DNA of 64,000 bases from Xanthomarina maritima (GTDB taxonomy: Bacteria > Bacteroidota > Bacteroidia > Flavobacteriales > Flavobacteriaceae). Where the stretch lies: the NCBI RefSeq assembly GCF_008084905.1, contig NZ_VSFC01000019.1, forward strand, positions 70,012-134,011, in the 5' to 3' direction. Positions 16,823 to 28,558 of the stretch are shown here, in pieces. Numbering within the stretch: the stretch's first letter is position 1; every line of letters starts with the position of its first letter. A program made the position numbers and the translations under genes. The notes under the pieces are model-generated. The model was not told where the DNA came from, ran no database searches, and saw only the letters and a list, made by a program, of their open reading frames with translations.

Positions 16823-17596
16823 TCATGTTAATTGGTTTAAAATAGCATTTGGAAAATCGGCTGTATCTTTAACACCATTATTACTTAAGTGTTTAATAAA
16901 TGCACTTCCAATTATTGCTCCTTTGGCATACGTAGTAGCTTGAGTAAAGCTATTATGATCTGAAATTCCAAAGCCTATAATTTGAGGGTTTTTAAGATTC
17001 ATATTGGCAATTCGTTTAAAGTAGTTGATTTGCTCTTCACCAAAGCCTGAACTACTTCCTGTAACACTAGCGCTACTTACCATATAAATAAATCCATTTG
17101 AAATAGAATCGATAAAATGGATACGTTCAATAGATGTTTGAGGTGTAATTAAAAAGACATTTATTAAGTCATATTTCTCAAAAATTGGTTTGTATTGTTC
17201 GTTATAAACATTTACTGGTAAATCTGGAATAATGAGTCCATCGATACCTGTTTCAGAACATTTTTTACAGAATGCTTCTACACCATATTGTAATATTGGG
17301 TTAAAATATCCCATGATAATTAGAGGAATATTGACCGTTTTTCTAATATCTTTTAATTGCTTAAAAAGTGCTTCGGTAGTCATGCCATTTATAAGTGCTT
17401 GTGTAGAACTAGCTTGAATGGTTGGTCCATCTGCAAGAGGATCGCTAAAAGGCAATCCTATTTCTATCATATCAACACCACTTTTTTCTAAATTTTGAAT
17501 GATTGAAACTGTGTCATCAAGATTTGGATAACCTGCAGTAAAGTATATAGATAGTAACTTTTTGTTTTCGTTTAGTTTTTTATTGATTCTATTCAC
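16823..17596 (-). CDS. trpA: Tryptophan synthase alpha chain
   Basis: Cleaves indole-3-glycerol phosphate to indole, which is channelled to TrpB. The 257-residue TIM barrel has the catalytic Glu in MIEIGLPFSDPLADGPTIQ, the catalytic Asp in GLIIPDLPV, and the phosphate-binding GFGISDHNS and GAIIGSAF segments. The start is GTG at 17596, 3 bases after the trpB stop; no ATG lies early enough, so the non-ATG start is needed. It is the last gene of the trp operon. Confidence 0.96.
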   Translation of the reverse strand: MNRINKKLNENKKLLSIYFTAGYPNLDDTVSIIQNLEKSGVDMIEIGLPFSDPLADGPTIQASSTQALINGMTTEALFKQLKDIRKTVNIPLIIMGYFNPILQYGVEAFCKKCSETGIDGLIIPDLPVNVYNEQYKPIFEKYDLINVFLITPQTSIERIHFIDSISNGFIYMVSSASVTGSSSGFGEEQINYFKRIANMNLKNPQIIGFGISDHNSFTQATTYAKGAIIGSAFIKHLSNNGVKDTADFPNAILNQLT

Positions 17597-17599
17597 AAT

Positions 17600-18781
17600 T
17601 CATAATTTGTAATAGTTAATGTATGTATTCAAATCCTTGTCACCACGACCAGATAAACTTAATACCACAACATCTTCAGGCTTAAATTTTTTCTGTTCAA
17701 AAATGGCTAAAGCATGCGAGCTCTCTATTGCAGGAATTATACCTTCCAGTTTACAAAGTTCTAATCCAGCAGTCATGGCTTGATCATCAGTAATTGACAT
17801 AAATTCAGCTCTACCTGATTTATATAAATGTGCATGCATTGGACCAACTCCTGGATAATCTAAGCCAGCAGAGATGGAGTATGGTTCTGTAATCTGTCCA
17901 TCATTCGTTTGCATTAATAGGGTTTTGCTTCCATGAATAATACCCTCCTTTCCTAAAACCGAAGTGGCTGCACTTTCACCAGAATCAACGCCATGACCAG
18001 CAGCTTCAACAGCAATTAGCTTGACTTCTGTATCTTCAAGAAAATGATAAAAAGCTCCAGCAGCATTACTTCCTCCACCAACACAAGCCACAACATAATC
18101 TGGTTTTGTTTTATCTTCGTGTTCTTTTAATTGCCATTGTATTTCTTTTGAAACTACAGACTGAAAACGTGCTACCATATCTGGATAAGGATGAGGTCCA
18201 ACTACAGATCCTATAATATAATGTGTGTCTACAGGATTGTTTATCCAATCGCGAATGGCTTCGTTAGTTGCATCTTTAAGGGTTTTACTACCTGATTTAG
18301 CAGAAATAACTGTTGCGCCTAGCATTTTCATTCTGGCTACATTTGGTGCTTGACGAGCAATGTCAATTTCTCCCATATATACAATACATTCTAAACCCAT
18401 TAAAGCACAAACAGTAGCTGTAGCAACACCATGCTGTCCAGCCCCAGTTTCGGCAATAATGCGTTTTTTGCCTAAACGTTGTGCCATTAGAATCTGACCA
18501 ATGGTATTGTTTATTTTATGAGCTCCTGTATGGTTGAGGTCTTCTCGTTTAAGATAAATTTTAGTGTTGTATTTTTCTGATAATCGTTTGGCGAAATAGA
18601 GTGGAGAAGGTCTACCAACATAATCTTTTAAAAGCAAATTGAACTCCTTTTGAAATGAAGGTTCTTTCATGACTTTTAAATAGTTTTGACGTAACTCTTC
18701 TACATTTGGATAGAGCATTTCTGGAATGTAAGCACCTCCAAATTCTCCGTAATATCCTTTTTCGTTTATGTTGTAAGTCAT
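17600..18781 (-). CDS. trpB: Tryptophan synthase beta chain
   Basis: A PLP enzyme that condenses indole and serine to tryptophan. The pyridoxal Lys is in [10 protein letters not shown], and the phosphate loop [10 protein letters not shown] and DLNHTGAHK region are intact. The ATG at 18781 gives 393 residues beginning [20 protein letters not shown], which matches the family. An in-frame ATG at 18799 lies in the dispersed repeat and would add MIKQNK, so it is less likely. The gap to trpF holds that repeat. Confidence 0.97.
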
Positions 18782-18794
18782 TTTATTTTGCTTT

Positions 18795-18854
18795 ATCATT
18801 CAGAACGAAGTGAAGAATCTCATAAGAGATGCTTCGACAAGCTCAGCATGACAG
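18795..18854. repeat. Dispersed palindrome-ended repeat, copy 1, between trpF and trpB
   Basis: The unit runs from ATCATTCAGAACGAAGTGAA to GCTTCGACAAGCTCAGCATG plus ACAGGT. It matches copy 2 at 21301-21361 over most of its length; only the middle differs clearly. ATTC/ATGAC-like ends give it inverted-repeat character. On the minus strand its first bases encode the last three residues (LSC) and the TGA stop of trpF. Confidence 0.8.
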
Positions 18855-19463
18855 GTTATTTTTAAACTCTTTTAACAATTCTATATTTTTTAATCCAGCT
18901 TCTAATTCAAATTTGCTGTTTACATCAATAGCGTAACAATATTTTGAAGCATCACTCTTAAAAAATGATTTTAAATTTTCTGTTTCTTCGATTCCAATTC
19001 CTCCACTTAAAAAATAAGGTTTGGTTGAAGGATATTTTTTTAGAACATCCCAATTAAATGTATAACCATTACCTCCTGAAAGTTTTCCTTTGGTGTCGAA
19101 TAAAAAGAAATCACAAACTTCTTCATATGGGTTTAAAACAGAAAAGTCAAACACATCTTTTATTGAAAATACTTTAATAATTTTAACTTCTGACAATTTT
19201 AATATTCTACATAATTCAGGAGATTCATGACCATGTAATTGAATAACTGACAACTTGTGTTTTTCTATTTGTCGTGAAATAAACTCCACTTTTTCATCTA
19301 CAAAAACACCAATTTTTTCTATGGTATCTGAAATTTCAGGTATTGTTTCTTCAAAATATCTTGCAGATGGTTCATGAAAAATAAAACCAAGAAAATCTGG
19401 TTGCAGTTGTGCAACTTCAGAGATATTATCTTGGTATTTCATCCCACAGATTTTTAATTTCAT
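18843..19463 (-). CDS. trpF: Phosphoribosylanthranilate isomerase
   Basis: Converts phosphoribosylanthranilate to the carboxyphenylamino-deoxyribulose phosphate. The 206-residue TIM barrel starts MKLKICGMKYQDNISEV with the catalytic Cys in KICGM. The catalytic Asp is in FFLFDTKGKLSGGNGYTFNW and the phosphate site is YFLSGGIG. The start overlaps the trpC stop by 4 bases (ATGA). The last residues and the stop are provided by the dispersed repeat, so the C-terminus was probably altered by repeat insertion. Confidence 0.95.
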   Translation of the reverse strand: MKLKICGMKYQDNISEVAQLQPDFLGFIFHEPSARYFEETIPEISDTIEKIGVFVDEKVEFISRQIEKHKLSVIQLHGHESPELCRILKLSEVKIIKVFSIKDVFDFSVLNPYEEVCDFFLFDTKGKLSGGNGYTFNWDVLKKYPSTKPYFLSGGIGIEETENLKSFFKSDASKYCYAIDVNSKFELEAGLKNIELLKEFKNNLSC

Positions 19464-20245
19464 TTTTCTAAAGCTTTAATAAATTCTTCTGCATTTTTTC
19501 CTGCATCATCAGTTTTCATAAAATTTTCTCCAATTAAAAAGCCTTTGTAACCATAAGGTTGTAATTCTTTTATGGCTTCAATAGAGCTAATACCACTTTC
19601 AGAGACTTTTACAAAATGGTTTGGAATTAGTTCACTTAATGTTTTACTGTTTTCCAGACTCACATCAAATGTTTTTAAGTTTCTATTATTAATACCCAAC
19701 ATATCTAAACTTGGCATGATGGATTTATGTAATTCTTCTTCATTATGAACTTCTAAAAGCACTTCTAAATTAAAACTCTTAGCTAATTGAGAGAATCTCT
19801 TGATTTCATCCCTAGTTAGAATGGCTGCAATTAATAAGATTACATCGGCTCCATAAGCTTTAGCTTCCATTATTTGATATTCATCAATAATAAATTCTTT
19901 TCGAAGTAATGGTAAGTTACAACTTGCACGAGCTGTTAATAAATCGTCCAGAGAACCTCCAAAATATTTAGCATCTGTAAGAACAGATATGCCACAAACT
20001 CCAGCTTTTTGATATCCTTTGGCAACATCAAACACATTTAAGTTTTGATTGATAACCAATTTAGATGGTGAACGACGTTTATGTTCTGCTATAATTCCAG
20101 TCGTACTATTTTTAAGTTTGTTTGATAATGAATAAGTTTCTCTGTTAAATAATACAGATTGTTCTAATTGAGTTATTGGAATAAGTTGTTTTCGAAGGTT
20201 AACTTCAATGCGTTTATCGGCTACTATTTGATCTAGAATATTCAT
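19460..20245 (-). CDS. trpC: Indole-3-glycerol phosphate synthase
   Basis: Closes the indole ring from the TrpF product. The 261-residue TIM barrel has the conserved N-terminal helix (ILDQIVADKRIEV), AEHKRRSPSK with catalytic Glu and Lys, LLRKEFIIDEYQIMEAKAYG with catalytic Lys, LLEVHNEEEL, GINNRNLKTF, and the phosphate-binding SESGISS and GFLIGENFM. The start overlaps the trpD stop by 1 base and the stop overlaps trpF by 4 bases, which indicates translational coupling. Confidence 0.97.
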   Translation of the reverse strand: MNILDQIVADKRIEVNLRKQLIPITQLEQSVLFNRETYSLSNKLKNSTTGIIAEHKRRSPSKLVINQNLNVFDVAKGYQKAGVCGISVLTDAKYFGGSLDDLLTARASCNLPLLRKEFIIDEYQIMEAKAYGADVILLIAAILTRDEIKRFSQLAKSFNLEVLLEVHNEEELHKSIMPSLDMLGINNRNLKTFDVSLENSKTLSELIPNHFVKVSESGISSIEAIKELQPYGYKGFLIGENFMKTDDAGKNAEEFIKALEK

Positions 20246-21240
20246 TAGTTACTGCTTAGTTTTACTAGTGTTTTAAAACTGTTTAGAGCTTTACCTCTTA
20301 ATAGTGATTCTTTTGCGAGTTCAAAACTATTTTCGATAGGTATATCTGTAACTGTAGTAATTGCCATAGCTGCATTGGCACAAACCACATTGTTTTGGGC
20401 TTCAGTACCTTGTCCTTTTAAAATATGTGTAAATATTTTGGCAGATGTAGCAACAGAATTACCTCCATGTATGTTGTCTTGGTTTAAAGTTTCAACACCA
20501 AAATCTTCAGGACTAATCATATATTCTGAAGTGTTTCTAATAATTTTTGTTGGTCCAGTTAGCGAAATTTCATCATAACCATCAAGCGCATGAAGAATGG
20601 TGTAATTTTTATCTGTTTTTTGATATAAGTAACCATACATGCGTAATAATTCTAAATTAAACACACCAACCATTTGATGTTTAGGAAACGAAGGGTTTAC
20701 CATTGGACCTAACATATTAAAAAATGTTTTAACACCTAATTCTCTACGTATTGGAGCTACATTTTTCATGGCTGGATGAAATAAAGGAGCATGTAATACA
20801 CAGATGCCTGCTTTATCTAAACTTCGCTTTAAAAAATCTGTATCCGAAGTGAATTTAATTCCTAAATGTTCCAAAACATTAGATGAGCCACAAGTAGAAG
20901 ATACTCCGTAATTTCCATGTTTTGCAACCTTTACTCCAGCTCCAGCAGTAACAAAAGATGCAAGCGTAGAAATATTAAATGTGTCTTTTCCATCACCTCC
21001 TGTTCCACATAAATCTATGGCATTATAATCCTTTAAATCAATAGGAATGCATAGTTCTAATAGTGCATCTCTAAATCCGAAAAGTTCTTCTATGGTTATG
21101 CTTCGCATCATAAAAACAGTTAGAAAAGACGCTATTTGGTTTTGGTTGTAATCACCATTAGAGATATTTACAAGAACCTGTTTAGCTTCTTCACTTGAAA
21201 TGTTTTCTTGATTTATTAATCTATTTAGTATGTTTTTCAT
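20245..21240 (-). CDS. trpD: Anthranilate phosphoribosyltransferase
   Basis: Transfers phosphoribosyl from PRPP to anthranilate. The 331 residues show the PRPP-binding motif LCGTGGDGKDTFNIST, VAKHGNYGVSSTCGSSNVLE, and the anthranilate/metal region around MKNVAPIRRELGVKTFFNMLGP. DEISLTGPT near residue 220 carries the second metal site. It is separated from trpG by 123 bases that contain two kinds of dispersed repeat. Confidence 0.97.
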   Translation of the reverse strand: MKNILNRLINQENISSEEAKQVLVNISNGDYNQNQIASFLTVFMMRSITIEELFGFRDALLELCIPIDLKDYNAIDLCGTGGDGKDTFNISTLASFVTAGAGVKVAKHGNYGVSSTCGSSNVLEHLGIKFTSDTDFLKRSLDKAGICVLHAPLFHPAMKNVAPIRRELGVKTFFNMLGPMVNPSFPKHQMVGVFNLELLRMYGYLYQKTDKNYTILHALDGYDEISLTGPTKIIRNTSEYMISPEDFGVETLNQDNIHGGNSVATSAKIFTHILKGQGTEAQNNVVCANAAMAITTVTDIPIENSFELAKESLLRGKALNSFKTLVKLSSN

Positions 21241-21247
21241 ATTTATT

Positions 21248-21265
21248 TCTCACGAAAGTGGGAAT
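21248..21265. repeat. Short hairpin repeat upstream of trpD
   Basis: TCTCACGAAAGTGGGAAT contains CAC-GAAA-GTG and resembles a short element I recall as common between genes in Flavobacteriaceae. It lies just upstream of trpD and next to repeat copy 2. The family assignment is from memory. Confidence 0.35.
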
Positions 21266-21300
21266 CTTATTAATTTAACTCTATAATTTGTCGGGTTTTT

Positions 21301-21361
21301 GTCATTCAGAATAGTGTGAAGAATCTTGCAAAAAGATGCTTCGACAAGCTCAGCATGACAA
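21301..21361. repeat. Dispersed palindrome-ended repeat, copy 2, between trpG and trpD
   Basis: The unit starts GTCATTCAGAATAGTGTGAA and ends GCTTCGACAAGCTCAGCATG plus ACA. It has the same orientation as copy 1 and ends 2 bases before the trpG stop codon. The complementary GTCAT and ATGAC ends make it a potential stem-loop in the trp mRNA. Confidence 0.8.
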
Positions 21362-21363
21362 GT

Positions 21364-21930
21364 TTAATTTTCAACCCAATTCTTTAGTATTTGTTTTCCA
21401 TTTGGTGTTAACACAGATTCTGGATGAAACTGAACACCTCTTACATCAAATACTCTATGGCGTAAAGACATAATTTGTCCGTTATCATCAAATGATGTAG
21501 GTTCTAATGCATCTGGTAAATTGGTGTCTACAACCCAAGAATGGTAACGTCCAACTTCAAAAGTCTTATCTAATCCTTTAAATAAGTTTTCATCATCTAC
21601 ACAAGTAGTGACTTTTGTAGCTACACCATGAAAAACAGTATCTAAATTAATTATAGTGCCACCGAAAACTTCACCAATGGCTTGTTGCCCTAAGCAAACA
21701 CCTAAAATGCTTTTTGTTGGTGCATACTTTGCTATTATTGGTTTAAGCAAACCAGCCTCATCAGGTATTCCTGGTCCTGGTGATAATACTATTTTATCAA
21801 ATACTTCAACATCATCTATATGCAATTGATCGTTTCTTTTAACTGTAACTTTACAACCTAAATCTTCTAGGTAATGAACCAGATTGTAAGTAAAACTGTC
21901 GTAATTATCAATAACTAATACGTTTTTCAT
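21364..21930 (-). CDS. trpG: Anthranilate synthase component II (glutamine amidotransferase)
   Basis: A class I glutamine amidotransferase that supplies ammonia to TrpE. The 188 residues show NYDSFTYNLVHYLEDLG, SPGPGIPDEAG, the nucleophile elbow GVCLGQQAIGE with catalytic Cys, and the catalytic His/Glu pair in VQFHPESVLTPNGKQIL. The trpE stop lies 2 bases upstream, so both subunits are made together. The same subunit can also serve aminodeoxychorismate synthase in some bacteria. Confidence 0.95.
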   Translation of the reverse strand: MKNVLVIDNYDSFTYNLVHYLEDLGCKVTVKRNDQLHIDDVEVFDKIVLSPGPGIPDEAGLLKPIIAKYAPTKSILGVCLGQQAIGEVFGGTIINLDTVFHGVATKVTTCVDDENLFKGLDKTFEVGRYHSWVVDTNLPDALEPTSFDDNGQIMSLRHRVFDVRGVQFHPESVLTPNGKQILKNWVEN

Positions 21931-21932
21931 AA

Positions 21933-23336
21933 TTATATATTTTCTGCTAATTCTAAAGCTTTTGTTAATGCACCAAGTTTATTGTAAACTTCTTGTAACT
22001 CATGTTCTGGATTTGATTTAGATACTATTCCAGCTCCAGCTTGCCAGTGTAATTGATGGTTCTTGCTTAAAAAAGTTCTTATCATAATAGCATGATTGAA
22101 GTTGCCTTCAAAATCCATAAAACCTATAGCACCACCATAAAAATCACGACTCGTTTTTTCATATTTCTCAATTAATTGCATGGCTTTATGTTTTGGTGCT
22201 CCACTTAATGTTCCTGCAGGAAAAGTATCTGCGACTACTTGCATGGTAGTTGTTTCTTTATGTTTGTTGCCTGTTACTTTACTAACTAAATGAATGACAT
22301 GAGAAAAGAATTGTACCTCTCTGTATTTTTCTACAACTACATGGCTTCCATGTCTGCTTAAATCGTTTCTTGCTAAATCTACTAGCATTACATGTTCTGC
22401 GTTTTCCTTGTCGTCTATGGCTAATTGTTTAGCAAGTTCAGCATCTTTTTCATCATTTCCAGTACGTTTAAAAGTTCCTGCAATTGGGTGAATTTCAGCC
22501 TTTCCTTTGTTTATAACTAATTGTGCTTCTGGTGAGCTTCCAAAAATTTTAAAGTCGCCATAATCGAAATAGAATAGGTAAGGAGATGGGTTGATACTGC
22601 GTAAGGCTCTATACACATTAAACTCATCGCCTTTAAATTGTTGAGAGAATTTTTTAGAAAGAACTAGTTGAAATACATCACCACGAGCACAATGTTTTTT
22701 AGCTAAATCTACTTGAGTTTTATATTCCTCATCAGAAAGATTTGAAGTTGTTTTTCCTTTCGTTGAATAATTAAAAGCTGAATAGTTTTTTGATTTAATA
22801 AGCTGAAGAATGTCATCTATATTATTTTCAGCATCAAAGCAATGTGCAAAAATATAAGCTTCATTTTTAAAGTGATTAATTGCAATGATGTTTTGATAAA
22901 CAGCATAATAAATATCTGGGATGTTTAAATGATCTTCTTTTTTAGAAATCTCAATGTCTTCAAAATAACGTACAGCATCGTAAGCTATATAACCAAAAAC
23001 ACCATTATTTATAAATTTAAAACTGTCATCTGATTGTACTTTAAAACGTTTTGTGAACTTATGAATCACATCTGTAACACTTGTATTTTTCTTTATTTTG
23101 TTTTTAAATATGGTACCATCTGGAAAAGTTTGAGTTATCACTTCATTTTTAACTTTTATTGAAGCAATTGGGTTACAGCAGATATAAGAAAAACTATTGT
23201 CATTTGCATGATAATCACTACTTTCAAGTAAAATGCTATTTGGAAATTTATCGCGTACTTTTAGATAAATACTTACTGGTGTGATAGTATCGGCTAGAAT
23301 TTTTTTATGGTGAGTGTATAAACTGAATATTTTCAT
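21933..23336 (-). CDS. trpE: Anthranilate synthase component I
   Basis: Converts chorismate and ammonia to anthranilate, the first committed step of tryptophan synthesis. The 467 residues contain LLESSDYHANDNSFSYI (the LLES feedback-inhibition segment), IHPIAGTFKRTG, the chorismate-binding HVMLVDLARNDLSRHG, VADTFPAGTLSGAPK and YGGAIGFMDFEGN. The LLES segment suggests inhibition by tryptophan. It is the first structural gene after the attenuator. Confidence 0.96.
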   Translation of the reverse strand: MKIFSLYTHHKKILADTITPVSIYLKVRDKFPNSILLESSDYHANDNSFSYICCNPIASIKVKNEVITQTFPDGTIFKNKIKKNTSVTDVIHKFTKRFKVQSDDSFKFINNGVFGYIAYDAVRYFEDIEISKKEDHLNIPDIYYAVYQNIIAINHFKNEAYIFAHCFDAENNIDDILQLIKSKNYSAFNYSTKGKTTSNLSDEEYKTQVDLAKKHCARGDVFQLVLSKKFSQQFKGDEFNVYRALRSINPSPYLFYFDYGDFKIFGSSPEAQLVINKGKAEIHPIAGTFKRTGNDEKDAELAKQLAIDDKENAEHVMLVDLARNDLSRHGSHVVVEKYREVQFFSHVIHLVSKVTGNKHKETTTMQVVADTFPAGTLSGAPKHKAMQLIEKYEKTSRDFYGGAIGFMDFEGNFNHAIMIRTFLSKNHQLHWQAGAGIVSKSNPEHELQEVYNKLGALTKALELAENI

Positions 23337-23344
23337 AAATTAAT

Positions 23345-23379
23345 TAATAAAAAAAGGCTTGTCGTGAATGACAAGCCTT
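23345..23379 (-). terminator. trp attenuator: intrinsic terminator in the trpE leader
   Basis: On the minus strand AAGGCTTGTC, a 6-base loop and GACAAGCCTT (stem arms 23370-23379 and 23354-23363) form a perfect 10-bp stem directly followed by a U-rich run. It lies between the leader peptide and the trpE start at 23336, so it would end transcription before the operon. Confidence 0.92.
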
Positions 23380-23419
23380 GATATTTTAGTTTTAAATATA
23401 CTATAGCGATTGTTCACGA
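23362..23419 (-). promoter_or_regulatory. Predicted trp antiterminator pairing
   Basis: In the minus-strand RNA the segment UCGUGAACAA (23410-23419, overlapping the leader stop codon) can pair with UUGUCAUUCACGA (23362-23374): seven continuous pairs, a 3-base bulge and three more. The second arm covers the terminator's 5' arm end, its loop and the first bases of its 3' arm, so the two structures exclude each other. A ribosome stalled at the Trp codons leaves the first arm free; a ribosome at the stop codon covers it. Confidence 0.75.
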
Positions 23420-23470
23420 ATTAGAGTTTCGAGAATTCCACCACCAAGTATGATTTAAAATTGAGTTCAT
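23414..23470 (-). CDS. trpL: trp operon leader peptide with three consecutive Trp codons
   Basis: ATG at 23468-23470 and TGA at 23414-23416 encode the 18-residue peptide MNSILNHTWWWNSRNSNS. Three TGG codons in a row at positions 9-11, in a 19-codon ORF placed between a perfect promoter and a terminator hairpin upstream of trpE, are the signature of a tryptophan-sensing leader peptide. The ORF is too short for ordinary gene callers. Its stop codon lies in the arm of the predicted antiterminator. Confidence 0.92.
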   Translation of the reverse strand: MNSILNHTWWWNSRNSNS

Positions 23471-23483
23471 TTTTTTTATTTTT

Positions 23484-23514
23484 CAAATATATAATGATTT
23501 GTTTATTAAGCAAA
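23484..23514 (-). promoter_or_regulatory. trp operon promoter (-33 TTTG, 19-base spacer, -7 TATATTTG)
   Basis: On the minus strand TTTG (23511-23514) is followed after exactly 19 bases by TATATTTG (23484-23491), matching the Bacteroidetes consensus in both boxes. The predicted start of transcription, about 6-7 bases downstream, leaves only a very short untranslated region before the trpL ATG at 23470. Confidence 0.8.
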
Positions 23515-23526
23515 ATAATTATTAAA

Positions 23527-23555
23527 AAAAACTACCATATTTAATGGTAGTTTTT
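23527..23555. terminator. Orphan hairpin with terminator shape between the trp promoter and the TlpA-like gene
   Basis: ACTACCAT (23531-23538), a 5-base loop and ATGGTAGT (23544-23551) are flanked by A and T runs, so the hairpin could terminate in both directions. No annotated gene ends here on either strand. The 185 bases between it and the gene at 23741 are AT-rich without an evident ORF. Confidence 0.6.
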
Positions 23556-28127: not shown

Positions 28128-28165
28128 AAAAACTCCTAAAACAAGCATGTTCTAGGAGTTTTTTT
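28128..28165. terminator. Bidirectional terminator between the small membrane protein and ssrA
   Basis: An 11-bp stem (28128-28138 with 28153-28163, AAAAACTCCTA/TAGGAGTTTTT) can be extended by four pairs in the loop. It has T runs on both strands. It ends the plus-strand gene and, on the minus strand, follows the 3' end of tmRNA directly. Confidence 0.88.
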
Positions 28166-28166
28166 G

Positions 28167-28558
28167 TGGAGTCGCCGAGATTCGAACTCGGGTCCAAACA
28201 AGCCACCAAAGAGCTTTCTACACGTTTATTCTTTTCTTGGGTTTTCGACTGTAAGCTGGTTAAAGACAACCTACTTACAACTTATCTTCTTTAGTTTCAA
28301 AAATAAATCGAAGCGCTTTACTTTCTATATTAACTTTTACGATGCCTCTATTCGAACGCCGTTAATAAAGGCTTTCAGGAGACATTTAGCTTGTACACCT
28401 TGTGTACCTAGGCAAATCCTACTATAATTCGGATTATGCAGCTAAAGCGTAGTTATTCTCGCCGTTTAAATGTTTGACCTAGCCTTTTACGTGTTTCAAA
28501 GTCATTACACGACGTGCTTACCATTTAATTGATCTCGCTGTCAAAACCAGTCGACCCC
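28167..28558 (-). ncRNA. ssrA: Transfer-messenger RNA (tmRNA)
   Basis: The 5' end GGGGTCGACTGGTTTTGACA (28558 downward) and the 3' T-arm and acceptor end GAGTTCGAATCTCGGCGACT plus CCA-like end are those of a standard one-piece tmRNA. The acceptor stem GGGGTCG pairs with CGACTCC. The tag reading frame GENNYALAA plus stop lies at 28434-28463. The encoded end is followed by ACAAAA rather than ACCA, so the CCA tail is probably added after transcription. tmRNA rescues ribosomes stalled on broken mRNA together with SmpB and tags the product for proteolysis. Confidence 0.96.

Follow-up and report, generated by a model that had tools for sequence, protein, structure and literature searches.

Anatomy and covariation of the Bacteroid-trp leader RNA ahead of the trp operon of Xanthomarina maritima

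The trp attenuator of Escherichia coli combines a leader peptide containing Trp codons with RNA segments that pair as 1:2, 2:3 and 3:4, and a ribosome at the leader stop codon covers segment 2. In the Bacteroidetes, an RNA family named 'Bacteroidete tryptophan peptide leader RNA' (Bacteroid-trp, Rfam RF01692) is listed by Weinberg et al. 2010 (PMC2864571). Passages of a 2019 paper (PMC6414381) place a Bacteroid-trp element upstream of the Flavobacterium psychrophilum trp operon, liken it to attenuation in E. coli and link it to amino-acid starvation, and part of a transcriptome study of the same species (PMC9723704) reports that the regions ahead of amino-acid operons hold strong clues to attenuation by leader peptides. 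From Sinorhizobium meliloti, an excerpt of PMC7298713 describes a trp leader RNA (trpL/rnTrpL) that starts with its ATG.

The element described here lies in a 64,000-nucleotide stretch of the Xanthomarina maritima genome (the window). By its anatomy it is a real attenuator, and it is a member of an RNA family that has already been catalogued. A preliminary description of this DNA had read a trp attenuator in a Bacteroidetes genome; such an element is no first for the phylum, RF01692 dating from 2010. What the analysis adds is the assignment of segments, the covariation, the under-counting of the leader by the Rfam scan, and signs of a like logic at hisG and pheA. The anatomy is thereby worked out, and backed by covariation, for a family of which the mechanism was found in print only as inference.

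The trp locus and the occurrence of its leader

The trp operon (trpE-trpG-trpD-trpC-trpF-trpB-trpA, 16823..23336, minus strand), assigned from ORFs and Pfam matches, is the proposed regulated operon. Its first gene, trpE, starts at 23336, and the nearest TrpE among the 80 named loci kept is that of Bizionia arctica (89%). The order on the minus strand is promoter, leader ORF, antiterminator arm over the leader stop codon, terminator and then trpEGDCFBA. The RF01692 model matches 23370..23490 (minus strand) over its full length (positions 1-131 of 131) with 52.5 bits against a gathering score of 49; this is the one copy in the genome, and it lies upstream of Pfam-supported trp genes in a member of the Bacteroidetes. 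A tmRNA gene is also found in the window (28164-28558, minus strand, 144 bits).

At E <= 0.001, RF01692 matches were detected in 109 of 149 genomes of the window's own family (95 above the cut-off), in 24 of 148 genomes sampled across the order and in 30 of 296 sampled across the phylum, the latter two samples including genomes of the family set. The 40 family genomes without a match comprise 25 with a TrpE-like protein of at least 49% identity, three with TrpE fragments only, six with matches of 28-34% and six with none. The leader examination covered the first 25: L145 lacks upstream DNA, and 23 of the other 24 have a leader, consisting of a WW or WWW ORF followed by a hairpin and a T-rich tail. 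The sole examined case in which no Trp leader was found is L162, which has a TrpE-like protein of 50% identity and readable upstream DNA. The RF01692 scan (E <= 0.001, strict filters) under-counts the leader, since 23 of the 40 unmatched genomes carry one; a recognisable leader is present in 132 of the 149. Among the 80 named relatives, a strict scan detected the leader in 61, and inspection by eye in 17 of the remaining 19, with L188 lying at a contig edge and L228 having a masked terminator.

The 148 leaders compared below comprise 125 from Rfam matches (110 records in the first extraction) and 23 from Rfam-negative genomes; they are related, and counts among them are not independent events. 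Allowing wobble or one mismatch in the terminator gained L026 and seven of eight unextracted records. L031, whose contig stops within the terminator, was left out, as were second loci of the same genomes (L001, L120, L121, L125 and L130), and L131-L139 are outside the 148. The ORFs of the 23 added leaders were picked by eye, and L164 had two candidates. The next gene after the leader is trpE in 146 of the 148 (137 by motif; L002, L082, L089 and L124 by eye; L126, L127 and L129; L163 and L164 found by TrpE), where L127 was taken as L126, its leader being identical. L123, whose genome of 1.8 Mb belongs to a different family in the order, has its leader ahead of trpB, with trpE following, and in L055 another ORF follows the leader.

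Promoter, leader peptide and terminator

A promoter of the form TTG-N19-TATATTTG is predicted from the letters at 23484..23513 (minus strand). Part of PMC9723704 gives a -7 box TAnnTTTG at -12 to -5; the predicted start site here is near 23479, which leaves a 5' UTR of 9 nt. The box is found within 80 nt upstream of 144 of the 148 leader starts, against 11.6 expected from shuffles, and a TTG lies at a spacing of 17-22 nt from it in 121. Placing the box at -12 to -5 gives a predicted 5' UTR of 0-18 nt in 139 of the 148 leaders and of 0-3 nt in 41. SD-like 4-mers are present 4-20 nt upstream of the start in just four.

Directly upstream of the trp promoter is a further hairpin with a T run (AAAAACTACCATTAAATATGGTAGTTTTTTTT, 23524-23555, minus strand; the T run on the plus strand is shorter). 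The ORF list contains no ORF of at least 100 aa that ends at this hairpin, which may act as an insulator for the divergent thioredoxin-like gene (23741) or mark the end of an unannotated small RNA.

The leader ORF (23414..23470, minus strand) encodes MNSILNHTWWWNSRNSNS in 18 codons followed by UGA, and similar ORFs are found in relatives. Its three consecutive Trp codons, TGGTGGTGG at 23446-23438 on the minus strand, are the proposed sensing site, and a short ORF of this kind is a hallmark of classical attenuators. By itself TGGTGGTGG is not rare, with 109 occurrences on both strands of the genome; the rarity belongs to the combination of elements. Entry into the collection required at least two Trp codons in a row, and under that condition three are found in 132 of the 148 leaders and two in 16. 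The first Trp codon lies 24 nt past the chosen start in 112 of 125 leaders.

Ahead of trpE, the first structural gene, an intrinsic terminator is predicted from sequence and fold (23349..23379, minus strand; segments 3:4). Its arms (23379-23370 and 23363-23354) form a perfect 10-bp stem around the loop AUUCAC, and seven T follow at 23355-23349. The gap between the T run and trpE is just 12 nt, too short to hold a separate trpE promoter. The folding z-score is -6.3 for 23330-23480 and -6.2 for the predicted transcript, with none of 200 shuffles as stable in either case. The preliminary description had already read an 18-residue peptide with three Trp codons, a start that lacks a Shine-Dalgarno sequence, a stop codon overlapping the antiterminator arm (UGA at 23416-23414, inside segment 2) and a perfect 10-bp terminator with a U run before trpE, and all of these readings stand at the positions given here.

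Two other sites in the genome have a similar arrangement. Upstream of pheA (G000:C24, L171, minus strand; roughly 66.45-66.65 kb, assuming a locus flank of 1500 nt), an ORF encoding MKATLNFAYYNWHYFFFNKRNETLYM is followed by a perfect terminator with GUCUCG/CGAGAC, and a CGAGAC at the end of the ORF can pair with the 5' arm of the terminator (-9.5 kcal/mol). This element is likely a second attenuator, to judge by its letters; ahead of pheA, part of PMC9723704 notes an element that is structured, conserved and without an Rfam match. Upstream of hisG (G000:C18, L170:1172-1350), an ORF encoding MTFIQLHHHHFHSGT precedes a AACCCGUU/AACGGGUU terminator. Inspection by eye shows that CUUAAGCG, which overlies the stop codon, is able to pair with the terminator's CGUUUGAG, and a third attenuator is likely here. 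A branched-chain attenuator was sought by way of ilvD, for which the genome gave no PF00920 match.

Competing pairings and their conservation

Three segments of the leader have rival partners. Segment 1 (UUCUCGAA, 23428..23435, minus strand) lies just past the Trp codons and, on the basis of folds and of comparison between leaders, pairs with segment 2. Segment 2 (UUCGUGAACAAUCGCU, 23405..23420, minus strand) is the antiterminator arm and includes the leader stop codon. Its other partner, segment 3 (GGCUUGUCAUUCACGA, 23362..23377, minus strand), consists of the terminator 5' arm and loop; both assignments are based on duplex folding, masked folding and comparison.

The best fold contains a 1:2 hairpin (23435-23428, UUCUCGAA, with 23420-23413, UUCGUGAA) within an outer helix on the minus strand, of which the 5' side (23440..23460) takes in the Trp codons and the 3' side is 23390..23410. 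The RF01692 consensus has a paired region that corresponds to this arrangement and takes in the 5' side of the outer helix, with 16 letters of the window marked as non-standard pairs. The preliminary description had seen two rival structures and no separate pause hairpin; that part of it is not supported, and with a 1:2 hairpin present the layout is classical and not simpler than that of a proteobacterial attenuator. In the window's fold this hairpin sequesters the antiterminator arm. Among 110 leaders, segment 1 pairs with its own segment 2 at -6.94 kcal/mol, compared with -5.84 for swapped partners (-6.18 at the lowest among 20 swaps) and -3.53 for a shuffled segment 1; the swap test is confounded by lineage, and relatedness can account for part of this pattern.

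For the antiterminator, a pairing of UCGUGAA with UUCACGA and its extension by CAA/UUG had been proposed, and both are present in the window. Duplex folding widens the 2:3 helix to 13 pairs (UCGUGAACAA..GCU with GGCUUGU...UCACGA), and the UCGUGA core is kept among relatives. The wider helix gives -13.81 kcal/mol across 118 leaders; when the 14 nt that follow the core are shuffled, the value is -13.21, and the best among 50 shuffles reaches -13.72. The extension is weakly supported by this difference, as is the suggestion that an extended antiterminator explains the conserved terminator stem. The CGUGA core is exact in 111 of 125 leaders, and in all but one of those 111 (110) its distance from the first Trp codon is 27-29 nt. 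Among the 110 leaders that combine an exact core with WWW, the stop codon is 15 to 39 nt away and the core occurs in all three frames (81/26/3). The stop codon thus shifts by up to 24 nt while the distance from the Trp codons to the core holds, which points to selection on the RNA and on the distance from the stall site, not on the end of the peptide.

Covariation was examined in 21 leaders without CACGA in segment 3, 20 of them distinct. Across these 20, the own 2:3 pairing has a mean of -13.12 kcal/mol, compared with -9.95 (sd 0.60) for permuted partners, and none of 20,000 permutations was as good. Clear cases are L081 (GUCGCAA with UUGCGAC) and L159 (GGAUUCAG with CUGAAUCC). The own partner is the best on both sides in four of the 20 (L074, L081, L159 and L163), and in seven (L070, L128, L153, L156, L158, L161 and L164) at least 10 of the 19 foreign partners are better on one side. 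The 2:3 covariation is strong overall and uneven leader by leader. For the 2:3 duplex, 28 of 125 leaders fail to beat 95% of shuffles. In a set of 16 non-canonical leaders, pairing of segment 2 with its own segment 3 is better than with the average canonical segment 3 in eight, worse in seven and equal in one. Segment 3 was represented in this narrower test by just the final 8 nt of the terminator's 5' arm, so that the L126 pairing, for example, was missed. In 10 of the 16, the average canonical segment 2 pairs better with the segment 3 foreign to it than that segment's own partner does.

A MAFFT alignment of 121 leaders, folded with RNAalifold both whole and cut, gave the terminator as its sole consensus structure; 1:2 and 2:3 were both missing, and segment 1 seemed to be misaligned. 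Anchored per-leader tests were used after the consensus alignment, beside the duplex test. Conservation in relatives of the Trp codons and of the pairings, which the preliminary description had named as its check, was found, more weakly for the extension.

Masked folding was applied to 122 leaders (three of the 125, with a poor core, were left out), each cut four bases into segment 4, with the RNA covered by the ribosome hidden and the ribosome edge assumed to lie 15 nt from the start of the P-site codon. Before segment 4, the mean probability of 2:3 is 0.90-0.93 with the ribosome on Trp codons 1-3 (0.93 on codon 2, above 0.5 in 118 of 122) and 0.01 with the ribosome at the stop codon (above 0.5 in one of 122). 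With no ribosome the mean is 0.30 and the median 0.04, with 36 of 122 relatives above 0.5. The window's own leader gives 0.96-0.97 on the Trp codons (0.97 on codon 2), 0.00 at the stop codon and 0.00 with no ribosome. The mutual exclusion of terminator and antiterminator, a feature of classical attenuators that had been read from the letters beforehand, appears here as the expected switch, as long as segment 4 is not yet made. Once the RNA is complete, the equilibrium favours the terminator whatever the ribosome's position (mean P(3:4) 0.94-0.96), and P(2:3) exceeds 0.5 in only two of 122, with the ribosome on codon 3. The switch would therefore rest on transcription timing and kinetic order.

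Proposed mechanism, alternative readings and known systems

The initial reading of a ribosome-dependent Trp attenuator is borne out by the anatomy, and we hold with high confidence that the element is a classical ribosome-dependent transcription attenuator of the trp operon and belongs to the Bacteroid-trp family. We infer that it responds to tryptophan and terminates transcription in the cell as follows. Transcription would start about 9 nt ahead of the leader AUG. With ample Trp-tRNA, the ribosome would get to UGA and cover segment 2, the 3:4 terminator would form, and the RNA would end near 23350. With scarce Trp-tRNA, the ribosome would wait on the WWW codons and cover segment 1, leaving segment 2 free to pair with segment 3 before segment 4 exists, and the polymerase would read into trpE. 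With no ribosome loaded, 1:2 would pair and the terminator would again form.

If the attenuator works as read, ribosomes must trail RNA polymerase closely, given the short predicted 5' UTRs (0-18 nt in 139 of the 148 leaders, 0-3 nt in 41), in a phylum that initiates without Shine-Dalgarno sequences. Transcription-translation coupling in the Bacteroidetes would thereby become testable with a simple reporter.

One alternative grants the cis role and adds that the conserved stem and loop of the terminated leader act in trans as a small RNA across the Flavobacteriaceae, as rnTrpL does in S. meliloti according to part of PMC7298713. It would explain why the terminator stem is kept, and the positions of the terminator arms carry about 1.1-1.9 bits in 148 leaders, compared with 0.3-0.9 in the preceding 20 nt; however, the counting ran from the hairpin edges and allowed for no gaps, which depresses the upstream figures, and part of the conservation follows from the pairing of segment 3 with both 2 and 4. 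Since, in addition, all seven trp genes form one run here as opposed to three trp operons in S. meliloti, we consider a role in trans unlikely.

Less likely still, and improbable in our view, is a terminator that is constitutive or answers another signal, behind a short ORF that is translated without regulatory effect. The dominance of the terminator in every state of the complete RNAs at equilibrium fits such a reading, but Trp-codon ORFs lie before trp genes throughout the family (109 of 149 genomes by the model and 23 of 24 other examined trpE genes), segment 2 keeps its distance from the Trp codons though the frame of the stop codon varies, and segments 2 and 3 covary overall. An attenuator that does not use the ribosome, such as a T-box or a protein-binding leader, has a negligible probability: nothing in support of it was found, tmRNA and RF01692 alone, and no T-box, reach Rfam cut-offs in the 64-kb window, the other matches listed for this region fall far below theirs (the best leader, Phe_leader, has 21.4 of 55 bits), and the conserved Trp-codon ORF would be left unexplained.

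As a classical attenuator, the X. maritima leader is comparable with four described systems. It shares with RF01692 a full-model match, a Trp-codon leader ORF before trp genes, a paired region around the Trp codons and the terminator 5' arm AAGGCUUGUC, at which the Rfam model ends, without an antiterminator. The Bacteroid-trp of F. psychrophilum, as portrayed in parts of PMC6414381 and PMC9723704 that give neither segment assignments nor covariation, is the same element and likewise upstream of the trp operon. In S. meliloti, from an excerpt of PMC7298713, the ORF is at the 5' end of the RNA, and here it is predicted to start 9 nt from that end (0-3 nt for 41 of the 148 leaders); that system differs in belonging to another phylum, in its three trp operons and in the action of rnTrpL in trans. 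With the E. coli trp attenuator, the leader shares a Trp-codon leader peptide and the 1:2, 2:3 and 3:4 segments, and it differs in its run of three Trp codons, in a start that lacks a Shine-Dalgarno sequence, in its promoter, which is of the Bacteroidetes kind, and in a predicted 5' UTR that is very short.
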